Origin: Variovorax sp. DXTD-1
GTDB lineage: Bacteria; Pseudomonadota; Gammaproteobacteria; Burkholderiales; Burkholderiaceae_C
Length of the DNA stretch: 64,000 nucleotides
Direction of reading: 5' to 3'
Assembly (NCBI RefSeq): GCF_003984625.1
Contig: NZ_RWKH01000009.1
Location: 62,001 to 126,000 of the forward strand
Numbering within the stretch: position 1 is the stretch's first letter; each line of letters starts with the position of its first letter. The notes beneath the pieces were generated by a model. That model saw only the letters and a program-made list of their open reading frames with translations. It searched no databases and was not told the origin of the DNA. Of this stretch, positions 26,295-37,435 are shown piece after piece. The translations under genes and the position numbers were made by a program.

Positions 26295-26881
26295 CTTCGT
26301 TCATGCACGCGAACGGTGCCTGCCGACCTTGTTCGGTGCCGCGCACCATGAAGGCTCCCGCCAGAACCACGCCGACCGGCGATTGGCGCGCGTTCCCACG
26401 CGGACATGCGCGACTTGCCCATCAAAAGATGGCGCGCAGATTGCTTTTATATATTTTTGGTTTGAGCAATAAACCCAAACAGCACATGGCGCGTTATTGT
26501 GGTGTAACCGTTTTTGGGCCGCGGGGGGCTCAATAGGAGGTGCTTTCCCCGGAAAAGAAGCAATGAGTGCATAGACCGATTGCCATAGGTATTTTCACTG
26601 GGCATCGGGATAGCACCGAGTCCGTTTGCCGAACCTTGGAATTTAGCTGGAATTGAGAAATGGTGCGGGTTTTTCTTGGGAACTTTACTCGGCACTGTGG
26701 TTCTGATTTAACAAACAATATTCCGGGTGCACTCTTTGCTTTATGCTGTTTGTGCAGATGTGATTAAGGGAGTTTTCCACGGCTTGCAGCCATGGGGCGG
26801 GCACACCTTTAAAAAGTTGCGACGCATTGCGGCTGCAGGCTTCGGGTTATTAAAACCCGCAGACTTGATGGAGGCGTGACC
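26295..26881 (+). promoter_or_regulatory. Long lower-GC leader of prkA with candidate sigma54 promoter
   Basis: This 590-bp stretch has no credible gene and is visibly richer in A/T than its surroundings from about 26430 to 26765. At 26726-26739 GG-N10-GC (GGTGCACTCTTTGC) has the -24/-12 spacing of sigma54 promoters with TTTGCT at -12, but the -24 box departs from TGGCAC. A hairpin CGGGTT-ATTAA-AACCCG (26843-26859) lies just before the RBS. Another imperfect stem (TTTGGTTT/AAACCCAAA) is at about 26456-26479. An unused SD-like AGGAGG is at 26535. Confidence 0.4.
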
Positions 26882-28804
26882 ATGGATGTGATCAGCAACT
26901 TTGCCGCCCGCTACGAGCGCACCCGCGAGGAAGTCCTCTCGCTGCAGGACTACCTGGATATTTGCAAACGCGATCCCACAGCGTATGCCACTGCGTCCGA
27001 GCGGATGCTCAAGGCGATCGGCGAACCCGAGCTGGTCGACACGCGCAACGATCCCAGGCTTTCGCGAATCTTCGCGAATAAGGTCATCAAGATCTACCCC
27101 GCGTTCAAGGAGTTCTACGGCATGGAGGACGCCATCGAGCAGGTGGTGTCGTACTTCAGGCATGCGGCCCAGGGCCTCGAGGAAAAGAAGCAGATCCTCT
27201 ACCTGCTGGGCCCCGTCGGCGGCGGCAAGAGCTCGATTGCCGAGCGCCTGAAGCAGCTCATGGAGCATGTGCCCTTCTATGCCATCCAGGGTTCGCCGGT
27301 CAACGAAACGCCGCTCGGCCTTTTCGACGCGGTGGAAGACGGCGAGATCCTTGAAAAGGAATACGGCATTCCGCGCCGCTACCTGAACCGCATCCTCTCG
27401 CCGTGGGCCGTCAAGCGCCTTGAAGAGTACGGCGGCGACATCCGCCAGTTCAAGGTGGTCAAGCGCTACCCTTCCGTGCTTCGGCAGATTGCCGTTGCCA
27501 AGACCGAGCCGGGCGATGAGAACAACCAGGACATCTCCTCGCTGGTCGGCAAGATCGACATCCGCAAGCTCGAGACCTACGCCCAGGACGACCCCGACGC
27601 CTACGCCTACTCCGGCGGCCTGTGCCTGGCCAACCAGGGCCTGCTCGAATTCGTGGAAATGTTCAAGGCACCCATCAAGGTGCTGCACCCGCTGCTTACC
27701 GCCACGCAGGAAGGCAACTTCAAGGGCACCGAAGGCTTCGGCGCCATTCCGTTCGACGGCATCGTGCTGGCGCACAGCAACGAGAGCGAATGGAAGGCCT
27801 TCCGCAACAACAAGAACAACGAGGCTTTTCTCGACCGGATCTACATCGTCAAGATTCCCTATTGCCTGCGCGCCTCGGAAGAAATCAAGATCTACGAGAA
27901 GCTGGTGCGCAACTCATCCTTGGCCAAGGCGCCCTGCGCTCCCGGCACGCTGCGCATGATGGCCCAGCTCTCGGTGCTCACGCGGCTGAAGGAGCCCGAG
28001 AACTCCAGCATCTACAGCAAGATGCAGGTGTACGACGGCGAGAACCTGAAGGACACCGATCCCAAGGCCAAGTCGATCCAGGAATACCGCGACTACGCCG
28101 GGGTTGATGAAGGCATGAGCGGCGTCTCCACCCGCTTTGCGTTCAAGATCATCTCCAAGGTGTTCAACTTCGACAGTTCCGAGGTGGCCGCCAACCCGGT
28201 GCACCTGATGTATGTGCTCGAGCAGCAGATCGAACGTGAGCAGTTTCCGCCGGAAACAGAACAGAAGTACATCAGCTACATCAAGGAGCTGCTGGCGCCG
28301 CGCTATGCCGAATTCATCGGCAAGGAAATTCAGACGGCCTACCTGGAGAGCTACAGCGAATACGGCCAGAACATCTTCGACCGTTACGTCACCTACGCCG
28401 ACTACTGGATCCAGGACCAGGAGTTCCGCGACGTGGACACCGGCGAGGTGTTCGACCGGGCCGCGCTCAACGCCGAACTCGAGAAGATCGAGCGGCCCGC
28501 AGGCATCGGCAATCCGAAGGACTTCCGCAACGAGATCGTCAACTTCGTGCTGCGTGCGCGTGCCGGCAACGCCGGGCGCAACCCTGCATGGACGAGCTAC
28601 GAAAAGCTGCGCGCCGTCATCGAGAAGAAGATGTTCTCCAACACCGAGGAACTCCTGCCGGTGATCAGCTTCAACACGAAGAGCAGTGCCGACGAACAGA
28701 AGAAGCACGAAGACTTCGTGACCCGCATGGTCGAAAAGGGCTATACGGCCAAGCAGGTTCGCCTGCTCTGCGAGTGGTACCTGCGGGTACGCAAGAGTTC
28801 ATAG
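26882..28804 (+). CDS. prkA: PrkA family AAA+ serine protein kinase (YeaG)
   Basis: 640 aa. AAA+ PrkA domain with Walker A GPVGGGKSS at about 110-118, and a C-terminal PrkA kinase-like domain (ISYIKELLAPRYAEFIGKEIQTAYLESYSEYGQNIFDRYVTYADYW). ATG 26882 is 7 nt after TGGAGG; a GTG at 26876 overlaps the RBS spacing. In enterobacteria the yeaG-yeaH pair is tied to nitrogen starvation and stationary phase. A terminator-like hairpin separates it from yeaH. Confidence 0.95.
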   Translation: MDVISNFAARYERTREEVLSLQDYLDICKRDPTAYATASERMLKAIGEPELVDTRNDPRLSRIFANKVIKIYPAFKEFYGMEDAIEQVVSYFRHAAQGLEEKKQILYLLGPVGGGKSSIAERLKQLMEHVPFYAIQGSPVNETPLGLFDAVEDGEILEKEYGIPRRYLNRILSPWAVKRLEEYGGDIRQFKVVKRYPSVLRQIAVAKTEPGDENNQDISSLVGKIDIRKLETYAQDDPDAYAYSGGLCLANQGLLEFVEMFKAPIKVLHPLLTATQEGNFKGTEGFGAIPFDGIVLAHSNESEWKAFRNNKNNEAFLDRIYIVKIPYCLRASEEIKIYEKLVRNSSLAKAPCAPGTLRMMAQLSVLTRLKEPENSSIYSKMQVYDGENLKDTDPKAKSIQEYRDYAGVDEGMSGVSTRFAFKIISKVFNFDSSEVAANPVHLMYVLEQQIEREQFPPETEQKYISYIKELLAPRYAEFIGKEIQTAYLESYSEYGQNIFDRYVTYADYWIQDQEFRDVDTGEVFDRAALNAELEKIERPAGIGNPKDFRNEIVNFVLRARAGNAGRNPAWTSYEKLRAVIEKKMFSNTEELLPVISFNTKSSADEQKKHEDFVTRMVEKGYTAKQVRLLCEWYLRVRKSS

Positions 28805-28818
28805 CGGTAGTCCATAGC

Positions 28819-28845
28819 GGCGAGGCCGGGGCCTCGCCCCCTTTT
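28819..28845 (+). terminator. Strong intrinsic terminator between prkA and yeaH
   Basis: GGCGAGGCC (28819-28827) and GGCCTCGCC (28830-28837) form a GC-rich hairpin followed directly by CCCTTTTT (28838-28845). This is textbook Rho-independent structure, placed inside the prkA-yeaH-spoVR operon, so prkA mRNA should exceed that of the two downstream genes. Confidence 0.75.
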
Positions 28846-28867
28846 TGCAAGGAGCTTTGACATCATC

Positions 28868-30160
28868 GTGGCCATCCTGCAGCAGATCATCGACCGCCGG
28901 CTCTCGGGCAAGAACAAATCCATCGGCAACCGGGAGCGCTTCCTCCGGCGCTACAAAGGCCAGATCCAGGAAGCCGTGCGGCGCGCGGTCAGCGGGCGCA
29001 ACATCCGCGAACTGGAGCAAGGCGAAGATGTCACCCTGCCGCGCCACGATGTGTCCGAACCAGTGTTCGGCCATGCGCGCGGCGGCGACCGCGAGTACGT
29101 GCACCCGGGCAACCAGGAATACCTGAAGGGCGACCGCATTGCACGCCCCGAAGGGCAGGCCGGCGGCGGCTCGGGCAGTGGAGAGGCCGGAGACGGAGGC
29201 GAAGGCGAAGACGACTTCGTGTTCCGCCTCACGCGCGAAGAGTTCATGCGCGTGTTCTTCGACGACCTGGCGCTGCCGCACCTGGTTCGCACGCAGATTG
29301 CCGAAGTGCCCGAATGGAAGAGCCACCGAGCCGGCTTCACGAACGACGGCACGCCCAACAACCTACACGTGGTGCGCTCGATGCGCGGCGCCCTTGCGCG
29401 GCGCATTGCGCTCGGCGGGGAGCCGCGCAAGGAGCTGCGGCGCCTGGAGGCGCACCTGCTGCACCTGAAGCAGCATCCGCAGGCGGAGCAGCCCTTCATC
29501 CAGAAAGAAATCCGCGAGACTGAAGAGCACATTGAAGAGCTGCGTAGAACCGCGCGGCATGTGCCCTACATCGACCCGATCGACCTGCGCTACCGCAACC
29601 GCGTGAAGACTCCTGTGCCCAGCGCCAAGGCGGTGATGTTCTGCCTGATGGACGTTTCCGGCTCCATGGACGAGGCCCGCAAGGACATGGCGAAGCGCTT
29701 CTTCATGCTGCTCTATCTGTTTCTCACGCGGCACTATGAACGCATCGACCTCGTCTTTTTGCGCCACCACACGCAGGCGCAGGAGGTGAACGAGGAAGAA
29801 TTCTTCCATGCCACCGAGACCGGCGGCACCGTGGTGTCGAGCGCGCTGGTATTGATGGACGAGATCATCAAGGCTCGCTACCCGAGCGGCGAGTGGAACG
29901 TGTACGGCGCGCAGGCGAGCGACGGCGACAACTGGCACCAGGACAGCGGTCGCTGCCGCGAGCTGCTGGTCGAAAACATCCTTCCGGTGGTGCGCTACTA
30001 CGCCTACGTGCAGGTGGCCGAAACCGAGCAGAACCTGTGGCAGGAATACGCGCAGCTGGAGGGCCTGCAGCCCAACTTCGCGATGCGCAAGGTATCGGAC
30101 GCAAGCGACATCTACCCCGTGTTCCGCGACCTCTTCAAGAAGGAAGGGGTGCCCGCATGA
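28868..30160 (+). CDS. yeaH: YeaH/YhbH family protein (DUF444, VWA-like)
   Basis: 430 aa, start GTG with AAGGAG 13 nt upstream (rather far). The N-terminus is typical (IDRRLSGKNKSIGNRERFLRRYKGQIQEAV). After a Gly-rich acidic linker near residue 100 there is a von Willebrand A-like domain with MIDAS motif DVSGSMD near residue 260, and ETGGTVVSSAL. It functions with PrkA and SpoVR in an unresolved stress pathway. Its stop overlaps the spoVR start (ATGA). Confidence 0.95.
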   Translation: MAILQQIIDRRLSGKNKSIGNRERFLRRYKGQIQEAVRRAVSGRNIRELEQGEDVTLPRHDVSEPVFGHARGGDREYVHPGNQEYLKGDRIARPEGQAGGGSGSGEAGDGGEGEDDFVFRLTREEFMRVFFDDLALPHLVRTQIAEVPEWKSHRAGFTNDGTPNNLHVVRSMRGALARRIALGGEPRKELRRLEAHLLHLKQHPQAEQPFIQKEIRETEEHIEELRRTARHVPYIDPIDLRYRNRVKTPVPSAKAVMFCLMDVSGSMDEARKDMAKRFFMLLYLFLTRHYERIDLVFLRHHTQAQEVNEEEFFHATETGGTVVSSALVLMDEIIKARYPSGEWNVYGAQASDGDNWHQDSGRCRELLVENILPVVRYYAYVQVAETEQNLWQEYAQLEGLQPNFAMRKVSDASDIYPVFRDLFKKEGVPA

Positions 30161-31710
30161 CCTCCGAACACCCTCCCTTCGAGCGCATGAACTCCACCGG
30201 ACGCCTGGAGCGGCTGGCCAGCCCGTCCGACTGGACCTTCGACCTCATCGAGACCTATCACACGGAGATAGCGAAAACCGCCAAGGGCTTCGGGCTGGAC
30301 GTGTACCCCAACCAGCTCGAGGTGATTACCGCCGAGCAGATGATGGATGCCTACGCCAGCGTGGGCATGCCCATGATCTACCGCCACTGGTCGTACGGCA
30401 AACAGTTCATCGCTACCGAGAAGAACTACCGCCGCGGCCACATGGGGCTGGCCTACGAGATCGTCATCAACTCCGATCCCTGCATTGCCTACCTGATGGA
30501 AGAAAACACCATGGCCATGCAGGCCCTGGTGATTGCGCATGCGGCCTACGGCCACAACAGCTTCTTCAAGGGCAACTACCTGTTCCGCATGTGGACCGAT
30601 GCGTCGTCGATCATCGACTACCTCGTGTACGCGCGGCACTACATCGCCGAATGCGAAGAGCGCCATGGCCTCGATGCGGTGGAGCAGCTGCTCGACTCCT
30701 GCCACGCACTGATGAACTACGGTGTCGACCGCTATCGCCGTCCGCAGAAGCGTTCACTCGCGCAAGAGGGCATGCAGCGCGCCGAACGCGAGCGCCACAT
30801 GCAGCAGCAGGTGAACGACCTGTGGCGCACCCTGCCCCGCCGCAGCGAACAGGCCACGGAATCCGATGCTTCCCGCCGCTTTCCTTCGGAGCCGCAGGAG
30901 AACCTGCTCTACTTCATCGAGAAGAACGCCGCGCTGCTCGAGCCCTGGCAGCGCGAGGTGGTGCGCATCGTGCGCAAGATCGCCCAGTACTTCTATCCCC
31001 AGCGCCAGACGCAGGTCATGAACGAAGGCTGGGCAACCTTCTGGCACTACACCCTGCTCAACACCATGTACGACCGCGGCCAGCTCGCCGACGGCTTCAT
31101 GATGGAATGGCTCAGTTCGCACACGGGCGTGATCTTTCAGCCGCCGGTGGGGCACCGCGCCTACAGCGGCATCAACCCCTACGCGCTGGGTTTTGCCATG
31201 TTCACCGAGCTGCGGCGTATCTGCGAAAAGCCCAACGACGAAGACAAGCGCTGGTTCCCCGACTTTGCGGGCACCGACTGGGTCAAGACGCTCGACTATG
31301 CAATGCGCAACTTCAAGGACGAGAGCTTCATCGGACAGTTCCTGAGCCCGAAGACGATGCGTGATTTCAGGCTGTTCGCGATCCGCGACCACCAGAGCGA
31401 GCCCGAGCTCGAGGTGTCCGCCATTCACGACGACAGCGGCTATCACGCGCTGCGCGAATCGCTGTCACGCCAGTACGACATCAGCAGCAGGGAGCCCGAC
31501 ATCCAGGTGTGGAACGTCAACATGCGAGGCGACCGCGCCCTGACGCTGCGCCACACGCAGCGCAACAACCTGCCGCTGCACGACGATGCGGAAGAAGTGC
31601 TGAAGCACGTCGCCCGGCTGTGGGGCTTTGACGTTCACCTGGAGAGCGTCGACGCCCAAGGCCACATCAGCCGCAGCTGGAAGGCCGCGGCTCCAAGGCA
31701 AACCGACTGA
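30157..31710 (+). CDS. spoVR: SpoVR family protein
   Basis: 517 aa. SpoVR hallmarks are VYPNQLEVITAEQMMDAYASVGMPMIYRHWSYGKQF, AHAAYGHNSFFKGNYLF, NEGWATFWHYTLLN and SGINPYALGFAMF. The biochemical function is unknown; H- and E-rich motifs suggest a metal site. Coupled to yeaH by a 4-bp overlap. Convergent with aroQ 19 bp further on. Confidence 0.96.
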   Translation: MTSEHPPFERMNSTGRLERLASPSDWTFDLIETYHTEIAKTAKGFGLDVYPNQLEVITAEQMMDAYASVGMPMIYRHWSYGKQFIATEKNYRRGHMGLAYEIVINSDPCIAYLMEENTMAMQALVIAHAAYGHNSFFKGNYLFRMWTDASSIIDYLVYARHYIAECEERHGLDAVEQLLDSCHALMNYGVDRYRRPQKRSLAQEGMQRAERERHMQQQVNDLWRTLPRRSEQATESDASRRFPSEPQENLLYFIEKNAALLEPWQREVVRIVRKIAQYFYPQRQTQVMNEGWATFWHYTLLNTMYDRGQLADGFMMEWLSSHTGVIFQPPVGHRAYSGINPYALGFAMFTELRRICEKPNDEDKRWFPDFAGTDWVKTLDYAMRNFKDESFIGQFLSPKTMRDFRLFAIRDHQSEPELEVSAIHDDSGYHALRESLSRQYDISSREPDIQVWNVNMRGDRALTLRHTQRNNLPLHDDAEEVLKHVARLWGFDVHLESVDAQGHISRSWKAAAPRQTD

Positions 31711-32245: not shown

Positions 32246-32950
32246 ATGATGAGCGCAGACAGCATTTCAGCCTGGCATCCGGTGGCCCGTTCGGCCGATG
32301 TGCGCCCCGGCGCCAACATCTTTGCAGGCTTCGCGCAGGGGCAGGAGCTTGCGCTCTGGCGTTCGGCCGACGGCACGCCCCAGGCATGGGAGAACCGCTG
32401 CCCCCATCGCAGCGTGCGGTTCACGCTCGGCCAGGTGGTGGAAAACCGCCTCTCCTGTGCTTACCACGGCTGGCAGTACGCCGCCGGCAGCGGGCAGTGC
32501 AAGAGCATCCCTGCGCATCCCGATATGCCGCCGCCAAGCAACCTGTGCGCCAAGGTGTTCAGCGCCGTGGATGCAGCGGGCATGCTGTGGGTGAACCTCG
32601 CTGGTGAGACCGCACAAGCCCAGCCGCAAGACGACATCGTGCCTGCGGGATGGTCGTTCTGCCGCACCCTCGCCGTGCGCGCCGATGCGGCAAGCCTGCA
32701 CGATGCACTCGCCCGGCGCGGCTTCGCGAGCGACACCGCAACGGCGGCATGGCGCGGCCCGCTCGGCCAGTCCGGCACAGTGGCACTGGTGCTCGACGCA
32801 CAACCGCTGCTGGCCTTCATCCACCTCTGGACAGATGCCGCGCCCGGCACCGCCGCAATGAAGACACTGCACATCGCCGCACGCAGCCTCCGCAGCGAGA
32901 TCGAAGAAGAAGAAGAAGAAGAAAGTCGACGACCGCAATCGGCAGCCTGA
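32246..32950 (+). CDS. Rieske [2Fe-2S] protein, electron-transfer half of a split oxygenase
   Basis: 234 aa from ATG 32246 (32249 also possible). A complete Rieske cluster site is present: C52-P-H54 and C71-A-Y-H74-G-W, in the context of an aromatic-ring-hydroxylating oxygenase N-terminal domain (WHPVARSADV...). After residue 125 there is only a short, divergent stretch without the D-x2-H-x4-H iron site, ending in a Glu-rich tail. It should carry electrons but cannot hydroxylate alone. The next gene has the opposite make-up: catalytic site kept, Rieske ligands lost. No reductase is visible. Confidence 0.85.
   Translation: MMSADSISAWHPVARSADVRPGANIFAGFAQGQELALWRSADGTPQAWENRCPHRSVRFTLGQVVENRLSCAYHGWQYAAGSGQCKSIPAHPDMPPPSNLCAKVFSAVDAAGMLWVNLAGETAQAQPQDDIVPAGWSFCRTLAVRADAASLHDALARRGFASDTATAAWRGPLGQSGTVALVLDAQPLLAFIHLWTDAAPGTAAMKTLHIAARSLRSEIEEEEEEESRRPQSAA
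32903..32923 (+). repeat. GAA trinucleotide microsatellite (7 units) in the Rieske gene
   Basis: Seven consecutive GAA codons encode the Glu run near the C-terminus of the Rieske protein. A change by a whole unit only alters tail length; a one- or two-base slip would change the frame only after the functional domain. Confidence 0.85.
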
Positions 32951-32958
32951 AGAGAACC

Positions 32959-33822
32959 ATGCCCTTCACCACAGACGATCCCAACATGCTCGACGACTGG
33001 CTGGTCGTCGGCCCTTCGACGACGCTCGCCGGCACCTCCGATGTGCATCCCCGCACGACTCGCCTGCTCGGCGAAACACTGCACGTGTGGAGCAACGGGT
33101 CCGGTGCACCGCAGTGCCGGCTCGGCACGCAAACGCTCGCCGTCCAGTCGCGCTACGGCTACCTCTGGGTCTGCCCAAGCGGCAAGCCGACGCGGCCCCT
33201 GTTCGACTTTCCCGAATATGGCGAACAGGGGCGCCGCATGGTCGACTGCGGCAGCATCGGCGTGGCCGTATCGGGCTTGCGCGTGATCGAGAACTTTCTG
33301 GACATGGCGCACTTCCCCTTCGTGCACGCCGGCTTCCTGGGCAAGGTGCCGCACACCGAAGTGGCAAAGTACCAGGTGCAGGTCGACCCGGCCACCCAGG
33401 AAATCTGGGCCACCGATTGCCGCTTCTGGCAACCCCGCGCCTCGGCCGCCCACGACAGCGGGGCGGAGGTGACCTACAAATACCGCGTCATGCAGCCGCT
33501 CACGGCCATGCTCTACAAATCGAGCCACCGCGCCGGTGAGCTCGATGCCATCGCGCTGTTCCTGCAGCCACTCGATGACGAGCGCGTGATCGCCCACACA
33601 CTGCTCGCCTGCTACGACGACACCTCGACAGACGCCGAACTCATCGCTTTCCAGCAGACGATCTTCGGGCAGGACAAGCCGATTCTCGAGAACCACGCCT
33701 TCAAGCGCATGCCGCTCGAAGGCCGCGCCGAAACGCCGACGCGCGGCGACACGACCTCCGTCACCTACCGGCGCTGGCTGCGCGAGCGCGGCATGCGCTT
33801 TGGCGTGAGGCAAGCCGCATGA
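32959..33822 (+). CDS. Rieske-type oxygenase catalytic subunit lacking its own Rieske ligands
   Basis: 287 aa. The C-terminal part is a mononuclear-iron catalytic domain like VanA-type demethylases: N112-F-L-D115-M-A-H118-F-P-F-V-H123 gives the bridging Asp and the two His ligands. The N-terminal 75 residues align in shape with a Rieske domain (LAVQSRYGYLWVCPSGK) but have no C-x-H or C-x2-H pair. It starts 9 bp after the preceding gene and in a different frame. The upstream protein presumably feeds it electrons. Neighbouring formaldehyde genes suggest an O- or N-demethylase; this is inference. Confidence 0.8.
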   Translation: MPFTTDDPNMLDDWLVVGPSTTLAGTSDVHPRTTRLLGETLHVWSNGSGAPQCRLGTQTLAVQSRYGYLWVCPSGKPTRPLFDFPEYGEQGRRMVDCGSIGVAVSGLRVIENFLDMAHFPFVHAGFLGKVPHTEVAKYQVQVDPATQEIWATDCRFWQPRASAAHDSGAEVTYKYRVMQPLTAMLYKSSHRAGELDAIALFLQPLDDERVIAHTLLACYDDTSTDAELIAFQQTIFGQDKPILENHAFKRMPLEGRAETPTRGDTTSVTYRRWLRERGMRFGVRQAA

Positions 33823-34457
33823 TCAAGCTCTACGACTACGCCCTTTCCGGCAACTGCTTCAAGGTGCGGCAGATGCTGGCCTGGCTGGGCCTCGGCTACC
33901 AGAGCGTGCCGGTCGACTTTCACCCCGGCCGCGAGCACAAGTCGGCTGCGTTCCTGGCGCACGTCAACCCGCTCGGGCAGATTCCGGTGATCGACGACCA
34001 CGGCTTTGTGCTGCGCGAAGCGCAAGGCATCCTCGTCTATCTTGCGAGCAAGTACGACGCACAGCACCGCTGGTACCCGGACGAACCGCAGCTGCGCGGC
34101 CAGGTTGCGATGTGGTTCGCCACCGCCGATGAAATTACCCGCACCGCATCGGCGGCCCGGCTGCACGACGCGTTCGGCTACGAAAATCTCGACATCGAAG
34201 CCTGCCGGCGCGGCGCGCACGCGGCCTTTCGTTTGCTGGACGACCACCTGGCCGAGCGCGCCTGCGAAGGGCTGCAATGGCTGGTCGGGCAACACGCCAC
34301 CGTGGCCGACCTGGCCTGTTTTCCGTATGTGGCGCTGGCCGGCGAAGGCGGCATCCCTTTGGACGAATACCCTGCGCTGCGTACCTGGATGTGGGACTTT
34401 CGCCATCTGCCCGGCTTCATCGGCATGTCGGGTATCTTTCCTGCCGGCCCGGCCTGA
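33819..34457 (+). CDS. Glutathione S-transferase
   Basis: 212 aa: thioredoxin-like N-domain ([25 protein letters not shown] ... [11 protein letters not shown] ... [15 protein letters not shown]) and an all-helical C-domain ([15 protein letters not shown]). Its ATG overlaps the stop of the oxygenase subunit (ATGA), so the two are probably co-translated. It may handle a reactive oxidation product with glutathione. Confidence 0.92.
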
Positions 34458-34507: not shown

Positions 34508-35614
34508 ATGAAAACAAAAGCTGCCGTCGCCTGGAAATCCGGAGCCCCCCTCACCATCGAAACCGTCGACCTCGAGGGCCCGAAATTCGGCGAGGTGCTG
34601 GTCGAGATCAAGGCCACCGGCATCTGCCACACCGATTACTACACGCTCTCCGGCGCCGACCCCGAAGGCATCTTTCCGGCCATCCTCGGCCATGAAGGCG
34701 CGGGCATCGTGGTCGACGTGGGCCCCGGCGTCACCACGCTGAAAAAGGGCGACCACGTCATTCCGCTCTACACGCCCGAGTGCCGCCAGTGCAAGTTCTG
34801 CCTGTCGCGCAAGACCAATCTCTGCCAGCTGATCCGCGGCACGCAGGGCAAGGGGCTGATGCCCGACGCAACCTCGCGCTTCAGCCTCGACGGCAAGCCG
34901 ATCTTTCACTACATGGGCACGTCGACCTTCAGCAACTACACGGTCGCGCCCGAGATTTCGCTGGCCAAGATCCGCGAAGACGCCCCGTTCGACAAGGTCT
35001 GCTACATCGGCTGCGGCGTGACCACCGGCATCGGCGCGGTGATCTTCACGGCCAAGGTGGAAGCCGGCGCCAATGTGGTGGTGTTCGGGCTCGGCGGCAT
35101 CGGCCTGAACGTGATCCAGGGCGCCAAGATGGTGGGCGCCGACAAGATCATCGGCGTCGACCTGAACCCCGAGCGCGAAGCCATGGCGCGCAAGTTCGGC
35201 ATGACGCATTTCATCAACCCGAAGGACACCGAGAACGTGGTCGATGCCATCGTGCAGCTGACCGACGGCGGCGCCGACTACAGCTTCGAGTGCATCGGCA
35301 ACACCAAGGTGATGCGCCAGGCGCTCGAATGCACGCACAAGGGCTGGGGCCGCAGCATCATCATCGGCGTGGCCGAGGCCGGCGCGGAAATCAGCACGCG
35401 GCCGTTCCAGCTGGTCACCGGCCGCAAATGGGAAGGCTCGGCCTTCGGCGGCGCGCGCGGCCGCACCGACGTGCCGAAGATCGTCGACTGGTACATGGAA
35501 GGCAAGATCAACATCGACGACCTGATCACCCACACCATGCCGCTCGAAGACATCAACAAGGGCTTCGACCTGATGAAGCGCGGCGAGTCGATCCGCGGCG
35601 TGGTTCTTTACTAG
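34508..35614 (+). CDS. frmA: S-(hydroxymethyl)glutathione dehydrogenase / class III alcohol dehydrogenase
   Basis: 368 aa zinc enzyme oxidising S-hydroxymethylglutathione (formaldehyde adduct) to S-formylglutathione. Motifs: catalytic-zinc [12 protein letters not shown] and GHEGAGIV, structural-zinc cysteines in [15 protein letters not shown], and coenzyme loop [18 protein letters not shown]. The usual frmR regulator is not next to it. Followed by an alpha/beta hydrolase and fghA. Confidence 0.97.
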
Positions 35615-35636: not shown

Positions 35637-36560
35637 ATGAACCGCATGGAGCCCTTGCGCAAGATCGAAGCGGGCGTTCTCGACATCGCCTATTACGAAG
35701 CCGGGCCCGACGACGGCCCGCCCGTGCTGCTGATGCACGGCTTTCCCTACGACATTCACACCTACGCCGAAGTGGCGCCGATGCTCGCCGACAAGGGCTG
35801 CCGCGTCATCGTGCCCTACCTGCGAGGCTACGGCGCCACGCGCTTCCTGAGCGATGCCACGCCGCGCTCCGGCGAACAGGCCGCGCTCGGCGCCGACCTG
35901 CTCGCGCTGCTCGACGCGCTCGGCATCCAGCGCGCGGTGCTTGCCGGCTACGACTGGGGCGGCCGCGCTGCGTGCGTGGTGGCGGCGCTCTGGCCCGAGC
36001 GTTGCGCGGGGCTGGTCTCGTTCAACAGCTACAACATCCAGGACATCGCCAAGGCGATGGAGCCCGACACGCCGGCGAACGAACACAGCCTCTGGTACCA
36101 GTACTACTTTCACAGCGAGCGCGGCCGCGCCGGCCTGGCGAAGGACCGCAAGGCGCTCACCCGCCTGCTGTGGCAGCTCTGGTCGCCGACATGGAAGTTC
36201 GACGACGCCACCTTCGAGTGCAGCGCGGCGGCGTTCGACCATCCGGACTTCGTCGAAGTGGTGATTCATTCATACCGCCACCGCTTCGGGTTGGTGGCGG
36301 GCGACCCGGCTTACGCCGACATCGAACGCGGCCTGGCCGCGCAGCCTGCGATATCGGTGCCCACCATCACCTTCGACGGCCTGGACGACGGCGTGCGCCC
36401 GCCCGCCGAAGCCTCTGCCCACGCGCACCGCTTCAGCGGGCCGCGCTCGCACCGGCTGGTGCCCGGCGTGGGCCACAACATGCCGCAAGAGGCGCCGCGC
36501 ACATTTGCCGACGCCGTGCTCGAACTCGTGCCCGCGCTACGGCCCAACAACAACTCCTGA
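35637..36560 (+). CDS. Alpha/beta hydrolase, epoxide hydrolase/haloalkane dehalogenase-like
   Basis: 307 aa. Oxyanion motif HGFP (34-37), nucleophile elbow G-Y-D106-W-G-G with Asp instead of Ser, and the catalytic His in PGVGHNMPQEAP. An Asp nucleophile is typical of epoxide hydrolases and haloalkane dehalogenases, not of esterases. It is inserted between frmA (22 bp away) and fghA (TGATG overlap), which ties it to the same pathway. The substrate is unknown. Confidence 0.85.
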   Translation: MNRMEPLRKIEAGVLDIAYYEAGPDDGPPVLLMHGFPYDIHTYAEVAPMLADKGCRVIVPYLRGYGATRFLSDATPRSGEQAALGADLLALLDALGIQRAVLAGYDWGGRAACVVAALWPERCAGLVSFNSYNIQDIAKAMEPDTPANEHSLWYQYYFHSERGRAGLAKDRKALTRLLWQLWSPTWKFDDATFECSAAAFDHPDFVEVVIHSYRHRFGLVAGDPAYADIERGLAAQPAISVPTITFDGLDDGVRPPAEASAHAHRFSGPRSHRLVPGVGHNMPQEAPRTFADAVLELVPALRPNNNS

Positions 36561-37435
36561 TGACCGACATCTTCAAGACCCTTTCCGAGCACCATGTCTT
36601 CAGCGGCGTGCAAAGTTTTCACGAGCATGCCTCACACGAAATCGGCTTGCCGATGCGCTTCTCGGTCTACCTGCCGCCGCAAGCCGCGCACGAGCGGGTG
36701 CCGGCCCTGCTCTACCTTGCAGGGCTCACTTGCAACGAAGAAACCTTCGCAGTGAAGGCGGGCGCGCAGCGCATGGCGGCCAGCCTGGGCCTGGCGCTGA
36801 TCGCGCCCGACACCAGTCCGCGCGGAAGCGCGGTGGAAGGCCTGCCCGGCGCCACCGCCAACTGGGACTTCGGCATTGGCGCGGGCTTCTACCTCGACGC
36901 CACCGAGGCCCCGTGGTCTGCCCACTGGCGCATGGAAAGCTGGATCGTGCATGAGCTGCTGCCCTTCGTGGCAAAGCACTTCGCGGTCGACGACCAGCGC
37001 CTTGGCATCTTCGGCCATTCGATGGGCGGCCACGGCGCGCTCACGCTGGCAATGCGGCACCCGGGGCGCTTCAAGTCGCTCTCGGCATTCGCGCCCATCT
37101 GTGCGCCCACGCAATGCCCGTGGGGCGAAAAGGCGTTCAGCGGCTACCTGGGAGAGCCCGGCGGCGACCGTGCGCAATGGCTTGCGCACGACGCCAGCGC
37201 GCTCATGAAATCGCAGACCGCCGCGCCGTACCCGCAAGGCATATTGATCGACCAGGGACTGGCCGACAAATTCCTTGCCGAGCAGCTGTATCCGGAAGCC
37301 TTCGAAGCCGCCTGCTTTGCCGCGGGCCAGCCGCTCACGCTGCGCCGCCACGCGGGCTACGACCACGGCTACTACTTCATCCAGACCTTCATGGCGGACC
37401 ACCTCGCTCACCACGCCCAAACCTTGCGTGGCTGA
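36560..37435 (+). CDS. fghA: S-formylglutathione hydrolase
   Basis: 291 aa esterase-D family. It hydrolyses S-formylglutathione to formate and glutathione, completing glutathione-dependent formaldehyde detoxification. Motifs: LAGLTCNEETF, the PDTSPRG loop, nucleophile S154 in GHSMGGHGA, and D/H in the C-terminal part (IDQGLADKFL, HAGYDHGYYFI). The start overlaps the preceding stop by 1 nt. Confidence 0.96.
   Translation: MTDIFKTLSEHHVFSGVQSFHEHASHEIGLPMRFSVYLPPQAAHERVPALLYLAGLTCNEETFAVKAGAQRMAASLGLALIAPDTSPRGSAVEGLPGATANWDFGIGAGFYLDATEAPWSAHWRMESWIVHELLPFVAKHFAVDDQRLGIFGHSMGGHGALTLAMRHPGRFKSLSAFAPICAPTQCPWGEKAFSGYLGEPGGDRAQWLAHDASALMKSQTAAPYPQGILIDQGLADKFLAEQLYPEAFEAACFAAGQPLTLRRHAGYDHGYYFIQTFMADHLAHHAQTLRG

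Follow-up and report, generated by a model that had tools for sequence, protein, structure and literature searches.

We analyzed a 64,000-nucleotide stretch of DNA from Variovorax sp. DXTD-1, here called the window, which contains a run of genes that are all on the + strand and encode, in order, a 233-aa Rieske subunit (Rsk), a 287-aa NdmC-like catalytic subunit (Cat), a GST-like protein, FrmA, an alpha/beta hydrolase, and FrmB. Rsk is encoded at 32249..32950, from an ATG at 32249 (with 32246 as an alternative start) to a stop at 32950, and Cat at 32959..33822, from an ATG at 32959 to a stop at 33822. The two genes are intact and lie in different frames, as an earlier note on this DNA had described, although the gap between them is 8 bp and not the 9 bp given there. 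Each gene also has its own stop and its own start in 29 further loci of the same genus, where the two overlap by as much as 4 nt or lie up to 18 nt apart, in any of the three relative frames; with starts and stops so arranged, a sequencing frameshift is ruled out as the cause of the split. Apparent Rsk-Cat fusions were ruled out by the presence of separate stops. Directly upstream of aroQ and of the two oxygenase genes, window positions 26876-31707 (+) encode a PrkA serine kinase, a YeaH-type DUF444 protein, and a SpoVR family protein.

Rieske oxygenases normally carry the electron-feeding cluster and the catalytic iron on a single chain. When Rsk was compared with Pfam, the Rieske family was the only match (E 3e-20, residues 9-92), with no match to a catalytic domain. 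The full set of [2Fe-2S] ligands is present, as had been claimed, under a corrected numbering: the earlier C52/H54/C71/H74 counted an extra Met, and the ligands are C51-P-H53 (32399..32407, +) and C70 and H73, the latter two encoded together with Y72 at 32456..32467 (+). An alignment of Rsk relatives showed that all four ligands and Y72 are invariant in 43/43 proteins, none of which has the mononuclear iron motif, in agreement with the prior claim that Rsk has lost it. An AlphaFold model of Rsk (pLDDT 95.0, pTM 0.89) comprises a Rieske domain (residues 1-118) followed by a shrunken helix-grip remnant (residues 136-227). Because the model matches GxtA/SxtT along its whole length (Z about 19, 3.9 Å over 223 residues), the C-terminal part is best described as a shrunken helix-grip domain rather than a disordered tail. 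A GAA repeat at window positions 32904-32924 encodes an E-rich C-terminal stretch of Rsk and differs in length among close relatives.

The small size of Rsk, the superposition of its residues 1-118 on Rieske ferredoxins (Z 15-16), and weak matches to ferredoxin profiles might instead indicate that it is a conventional Rieske ferredoxin from a three-component system and no more than a neighbor of an atypical oxygenase. We consider this improbable, since the best relatives of Rsk are oxygenase alpha subunits (E 1e-26 for SxtT versus E 0.002 for the ferredoxin 2qpz) and electrons from a ferredoxin would find no Rieske cluster on Cat to accept them. Furthermore, Rieske ferredoxins are single-domain proteins of about 100 aa whose nearest relatives are other ferredoxins, whereas Rsk has 233 aa and bears a folded remnant of the catalytic domain.

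Cat presents the opposite picture. Its matches in Pfam are VanA_C (E 1e-19) and KshA_C, with no Rieske match, and its N terminus (residues 1-60) is Rieske-shaped and ligand-free, as had been noted, followed by a full helix-grip catalytic domain. The motif N112-F-L-D115-x2-H118-x4-H123 is present exactly as first reported, with the bridging residue D115 and the iron ligands H118 and H123 encoded at 33301..33327 (+). To these we add D239 (33673..33675, +) as the third iron ligand; in a phmmer alignment this residue, within QDKPILEN, pairs with the Asp of EEDIRIL in SxtT. Residues E111, N112, D115, H118, H123, and D239 are invariant across 53/53 aligned Cat proteins, and a Rieske motif was detected in 0/53. 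The AlphaFold model of Cat (pLDDT 90.8, pTM 0.90) superposed on SxtT with a Z of 32.0 and 1.9 Å over 273 residues; by these scores both Cat and Rsk have the Rieske plus helix-grip fold.

Neither protein singly combines Rieske ligands with a 2-His-1-carboxylate site, as an oxygenase alpha subunit does on one chain; the combination is found only across Rsk and Cat together. The iron site is present in every one of the 53 Cat proteins and the cluster ligands in every one of the 43 Rsk proteins with no cross-presence, which bears out the complementary loss that had been proposed. Half of the usual metal sites would also be absent from each protein if the locus were decaying, whether as one broken gene or as a pair of noncatalytic pseudoenzymes. 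This explanation is extremely unlikely given that every metal ligand of Rsk and Cat is invariant and that the genes are intact, each with its own start, not only in the 29 additional same-genus loci but also across actinobacteria and alpha-, beta-, and gammaproteobacteria. Profiles of the two proteins built from larger alignments aligned with each other over 198 columns (hhalign, E 8e-14); with small alignments, only the N-terminal match was obtained. Cat was without the stretch of the Rieske ligands and Rsk without that of the two-histidine motif, while a strand pair of the catalytic domain persists in Rsk. By this profile alignment, Rsk and Cat probably descend from one full-length oxygenase by duplication and complementary losses.

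If the two proteins are halves of one enzyme, neither should be kept without the other. In a sample of 398 genomes across the phylum, with cut-offs of >300 bits for short Cat and >170 bits for Rsk, both proteins were found in an identical set of 15 genomes and in 0 of the 383 others (Fisher p 1.7e-27, uncorrected for relatedness); below the cut-offs, the next scores came from full-length oxygenases. This distribution supports the obligate pairing suggested earlier. A survey of 80 named loci detected Rsk within the locus in 67 and in tandem with Cat in 61. Eighteen genomes with Rsk distant from or missing at the locus were searched whole, and Rsk was found in 17 of them, often as an Rsk-GST pair with Cat not adjoining; in the sole genome without it, a metagenome bin, the contig breaks off shortly past Cat. 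Hence, conservation of each protein alone, which would have spoken against the pairing, was not seen, and adjacency is not universal. Pairwise distances among Cat and Rsk proteins were correlated (r 0.89 over 57 loci), with shared ancestry accounting for part of the correlation. The loci at which an Rsk-GST pair stands without an adjoining Cat, which is located elsewhere in the genome, are L199-L202, L204-L208, and L210; these pairs are possibly a shared electron-delivery module.

The gene for the GST-like protein (33819..34457, +) overlaps the stop of Cat by 4 nt, and a GST gene is near Rsk in 60 of 67 loci (34/39 unfused and 26/28 fused). Farther downstream are FrmA, an S-(hydroxymethyl)glutathione dehydrogenase (34508..35614, +; TIGR02818, 628.8 bits, above cut-off), an alpha/beta hydrolase that is kept downstream of FrmA in related clusters (35637..36560, +; Pfam Abhydrolase_1, E 5e-21), and FrmB, an S-formylglutathione hydrolase (36560..37435, +; TIGR02821, 407.8 bits, above cut-off). 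FrmA lies downstream in 27 of 30 same-genus loci and in many others; formaldehyde genes were found within the 6-kb flanks of only 29 of the 80 named loci. The adjoining FrmA and FrmB genes suggest that the reaction releases formaldehyde, i.e., that it is an oxidative demethylation. In several betaproteobacteria, a full-length Rieske oxygenase gene lies directly downstream of the cluster (L101:5192-6283, L105:8414-9589, and L107:8423-9568).

For the substrate, an 8-oxoguanine-deaminase-like amidohydrolase (below its family cut-off) and BMP-type transporters are encoded beside the cluster in several relatives, which suggests a purine-like compound; we give an N-methylated, purine-like substrate about an even chance. 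It is nearly as probable that the oxygenase is split and that its reaction is something other than purine N-demethylation, with FrmA/FrmB functionally unlinked or the substrate not a purine. The neighbors of the window cluster include no identified purine gene, the purine context being confined to relatives outside Variovorax; the type A loci (defined below) of Rhodoferax and a Comamonadaceae isolate have a D-erythronate dehydrogenase-like gene in place of FrmA, and the nearest solved structures are saxitoxin hydroxylases. Against this reading stand the regular position of FrmA in the genus, the purine-related neighbors in relatives, and the characterized relative NdmCDE, which is an N-demethylase (PMC4408171).

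No reductase gene is present in the window cluster. The genome itself encodes several PDR/VanB-type reductases, none adjoining the cluster and none clearly dedicated to it. The best match in this genome to the NdmD reductase, C27:12206, was rejected because it is the reductase half of what looks like a cytochrome P450-reductase fusion protein of 782 aa, presumably CYP116B-like, encoded on contig 27 of this genome (L065:4875-7223). The other good matches each lie beside an oxygenase of their own. A VanAB-type oxygenase-reductase pair is located about 47 kb from the cluster on the same contig, and in four relatives matching reductase positions are 41-48 kb away. In vitro, VanB is known to support Rieske oxygenases other than its own partner (PMC9615114, PMC7293229), which makes a shared VanB-like donor plausible. 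The reductase is probably encoded outside the cluster and shared in this genome.

Comparison of gene order revealed several architectures. Type A, with Rsk, Cat, and GST and no reductase, is that of the window, of most cluster-bearing Variovorax, of several Comamonadaceae, and of alphaproteobacteria (Rhizobium and Qingshengfaniella plasmids). Type A', in which Rsk, Cat, reductase, and GST are all separate, occurs in Piscinibacter, Hydrogenophaga, Azohydromonas, and Zoogloea. Type B, found in a few Variovorax genomes, has Rsk, a Cat-reductase fusion, and GST, whereas type C, the NdmCDE arrangement, has one or two Cat genes, an Rsk-reductase fusion, and GST and is found in S. meliloti, Mesorhizobium, Aminobacter, Granulosicoccus, and others. 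The type B fusion is an unbroken frame of 604-641 aa in four genomes (L072:9185-11041, L074:9745-11595, L071:8458-10272, and L073:1870-3795), each with a separate Rieske gene upstream; in a fifth, G015, a stretch of Ns in the assembly interrupts the frame, and this genome was not counted. The one fusion protein that was scanned with Pfam contains VanA_C, NAD-binding, and Fer2 domains. This arrangement mirrors the NdmD fusion, and with the reductase joined to Rsk in S. meliloti and to Cat in a few Variovorax, fusion evidently links the reductase to either half. In a quick tree of Cat, the window protein falls in a clade (support 98) that is betaproteobacterial and comprises types A and A', and type A recurs in another clade, of alphaproteobacteria; the outgroup was distant and the root is unsure.

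Taken together, we regard it as highly likely that Rsk and Cat complement each other as the two halves of a single NdmC/NdmD/NdmE-type Rieske non-heme iron oxygenase, predicted to form a split heteromer; this degree of confidence applies to the split heteromeric oxygenase and not to its substrate. In SxtT, a distance of about 45 Å separates the two centers within a chain, and electrons pass from one subunit to another, with Tyr76 and Asp161 bridging the cluster and the iron, whose ligands are His164, His169, and Asp280 (PMC7293229). The counterparts of the iron ligands are H118, H123, and D239 of Cat, and those of the bridge, Y72 of Rsk and D115 of Cat, are on different proteins. That both halves of an SxtT-type bridge are kept favors the electron transfer between subunits that the earlier note had envisaged. 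Since electrons already cross from subunit to subunit in ordinary oxygenases, the chemistry need not change when donor and acceptor belong to two proteins.

We propose the following mechanism. After duplication of a full-length oxygenase, one copy, Rsk, would have kept the [2Fe-2S] domain and shrunk its catalytic domain, and the other, Cat, would have retained the iron site but not the segment that binds the cluster, as the profile alignment implies. The two proteins would then assemble, probably with the GST-like protein as a scaffold. NdmE is needed for the solubility and activity of NdmCDE and is thought to align its partners (PMC4408171); by analogy, the protein encoded at 33819-34457 may do the same here. 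The interface would place H73/Y72 of Rsk opposite D115/H118 of Cat, so that Rsk, once reduced by an external NAD(P)H reductase, could hand electrons on to the Cat iron, as neighboring subunits do in ordinary alpha3 trimers. More tentatively, and with a likelihood below even, the separate Rieske subunit and its GST-like partner might form a shared electron-delivery module for several interchangeable catalytic subunits, with the reductase free or attached in evolution to either half (Rsk in NdmD, Cat in some Variovorax). The Rsk-GST pairs located apart from Cat in some genomes and the two Cat genes per Rsk in some clusters fit such a module.

In ordinary Rieske oxygenases each subunit both donates and accepts electrons, and transfer between subunits is hard to isolate. 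With the donor and acceptor sites on different genes, each can be mutated, swapped, or depleted of metal alone, making electron transfer between separate subunits directly testable. The architectures with all components separate, with the reductase on Rsk, and with the reductase on Cat provide a natural series for the study of electron-chain wiring and offer components from which demethylases could be engineered. The data also suggest that many proteins that bear no annotation beyond "aromatic ring-hydroxylating dioxygenase subunit alpha" represent half of an enzyme.

The earlier note knew of no characterized pair of this kind; such pairs are in fact on record. In caffeine N-demethylation, NdmC is without a Rieske cluster and is served by the Rieske domain of NdmD, with the GST-like NdmE as the third component, and the NdmCDE complex has been characterized as the 7-methylxanthine N7-demethylase of Pseudomonas putida CBB5 (PMC4408171). 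We made the comparison via homologues from S. meliloti, whose genus that study names as carrying ndmCDE clusters. Within a single operon of the window, Rsk corresponds to the N-terminal ~230 residues of NdmD, Cat to NdmC, and the next gene to NdmE; Cat and its 52 relatives share with NdmC the absence of a Rieske cluster, and frmA and frmB adjoin both clusters. The systems differ in that the Rieske domain of NdmD is fused to a reductase, whereas Rsk of the window ends at 233 aa, free, in a cluster with no reductase. The ndmCDE-like clusters of S. meliloti pSymA and of Mesorhizobium/Aminobacter resemble the window in Cat (46-49% identity to the S. meliloti NdmC-type proteins), in the Rieske domain (41% between Rsk and the N terminus of the NdmD homologue), and in GST (59%) but have an Rsk-reductase fusion and often two Cat genes per Rsk. 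The full-length oxygenase downstream of some betaproteobacterial clusters is reminiscent of NdmA/NdmB, which accompany NdmCDE. Thus, the split itself is known, while we found no description in the open-access literature of the bacterial arrangement with every protein unfused, of Cat joined to a reductase, or of so strict a co-occurrence. Another two-chain Rieske oxygenase, chlorophyllide a oxygenase of Micromonas pusilla, is active with VanB (PMC9615114); it is likened here by description only, and it is eukaryotic and belongs to the chlorophyll pathway. SxtT and GxtA of the saxitoxin pathway are the nearest solved structures to both halves and share their ligand and bridge residues, but they are homotrimers that carry on one chain the two centers divided here between Rsk and Cat.
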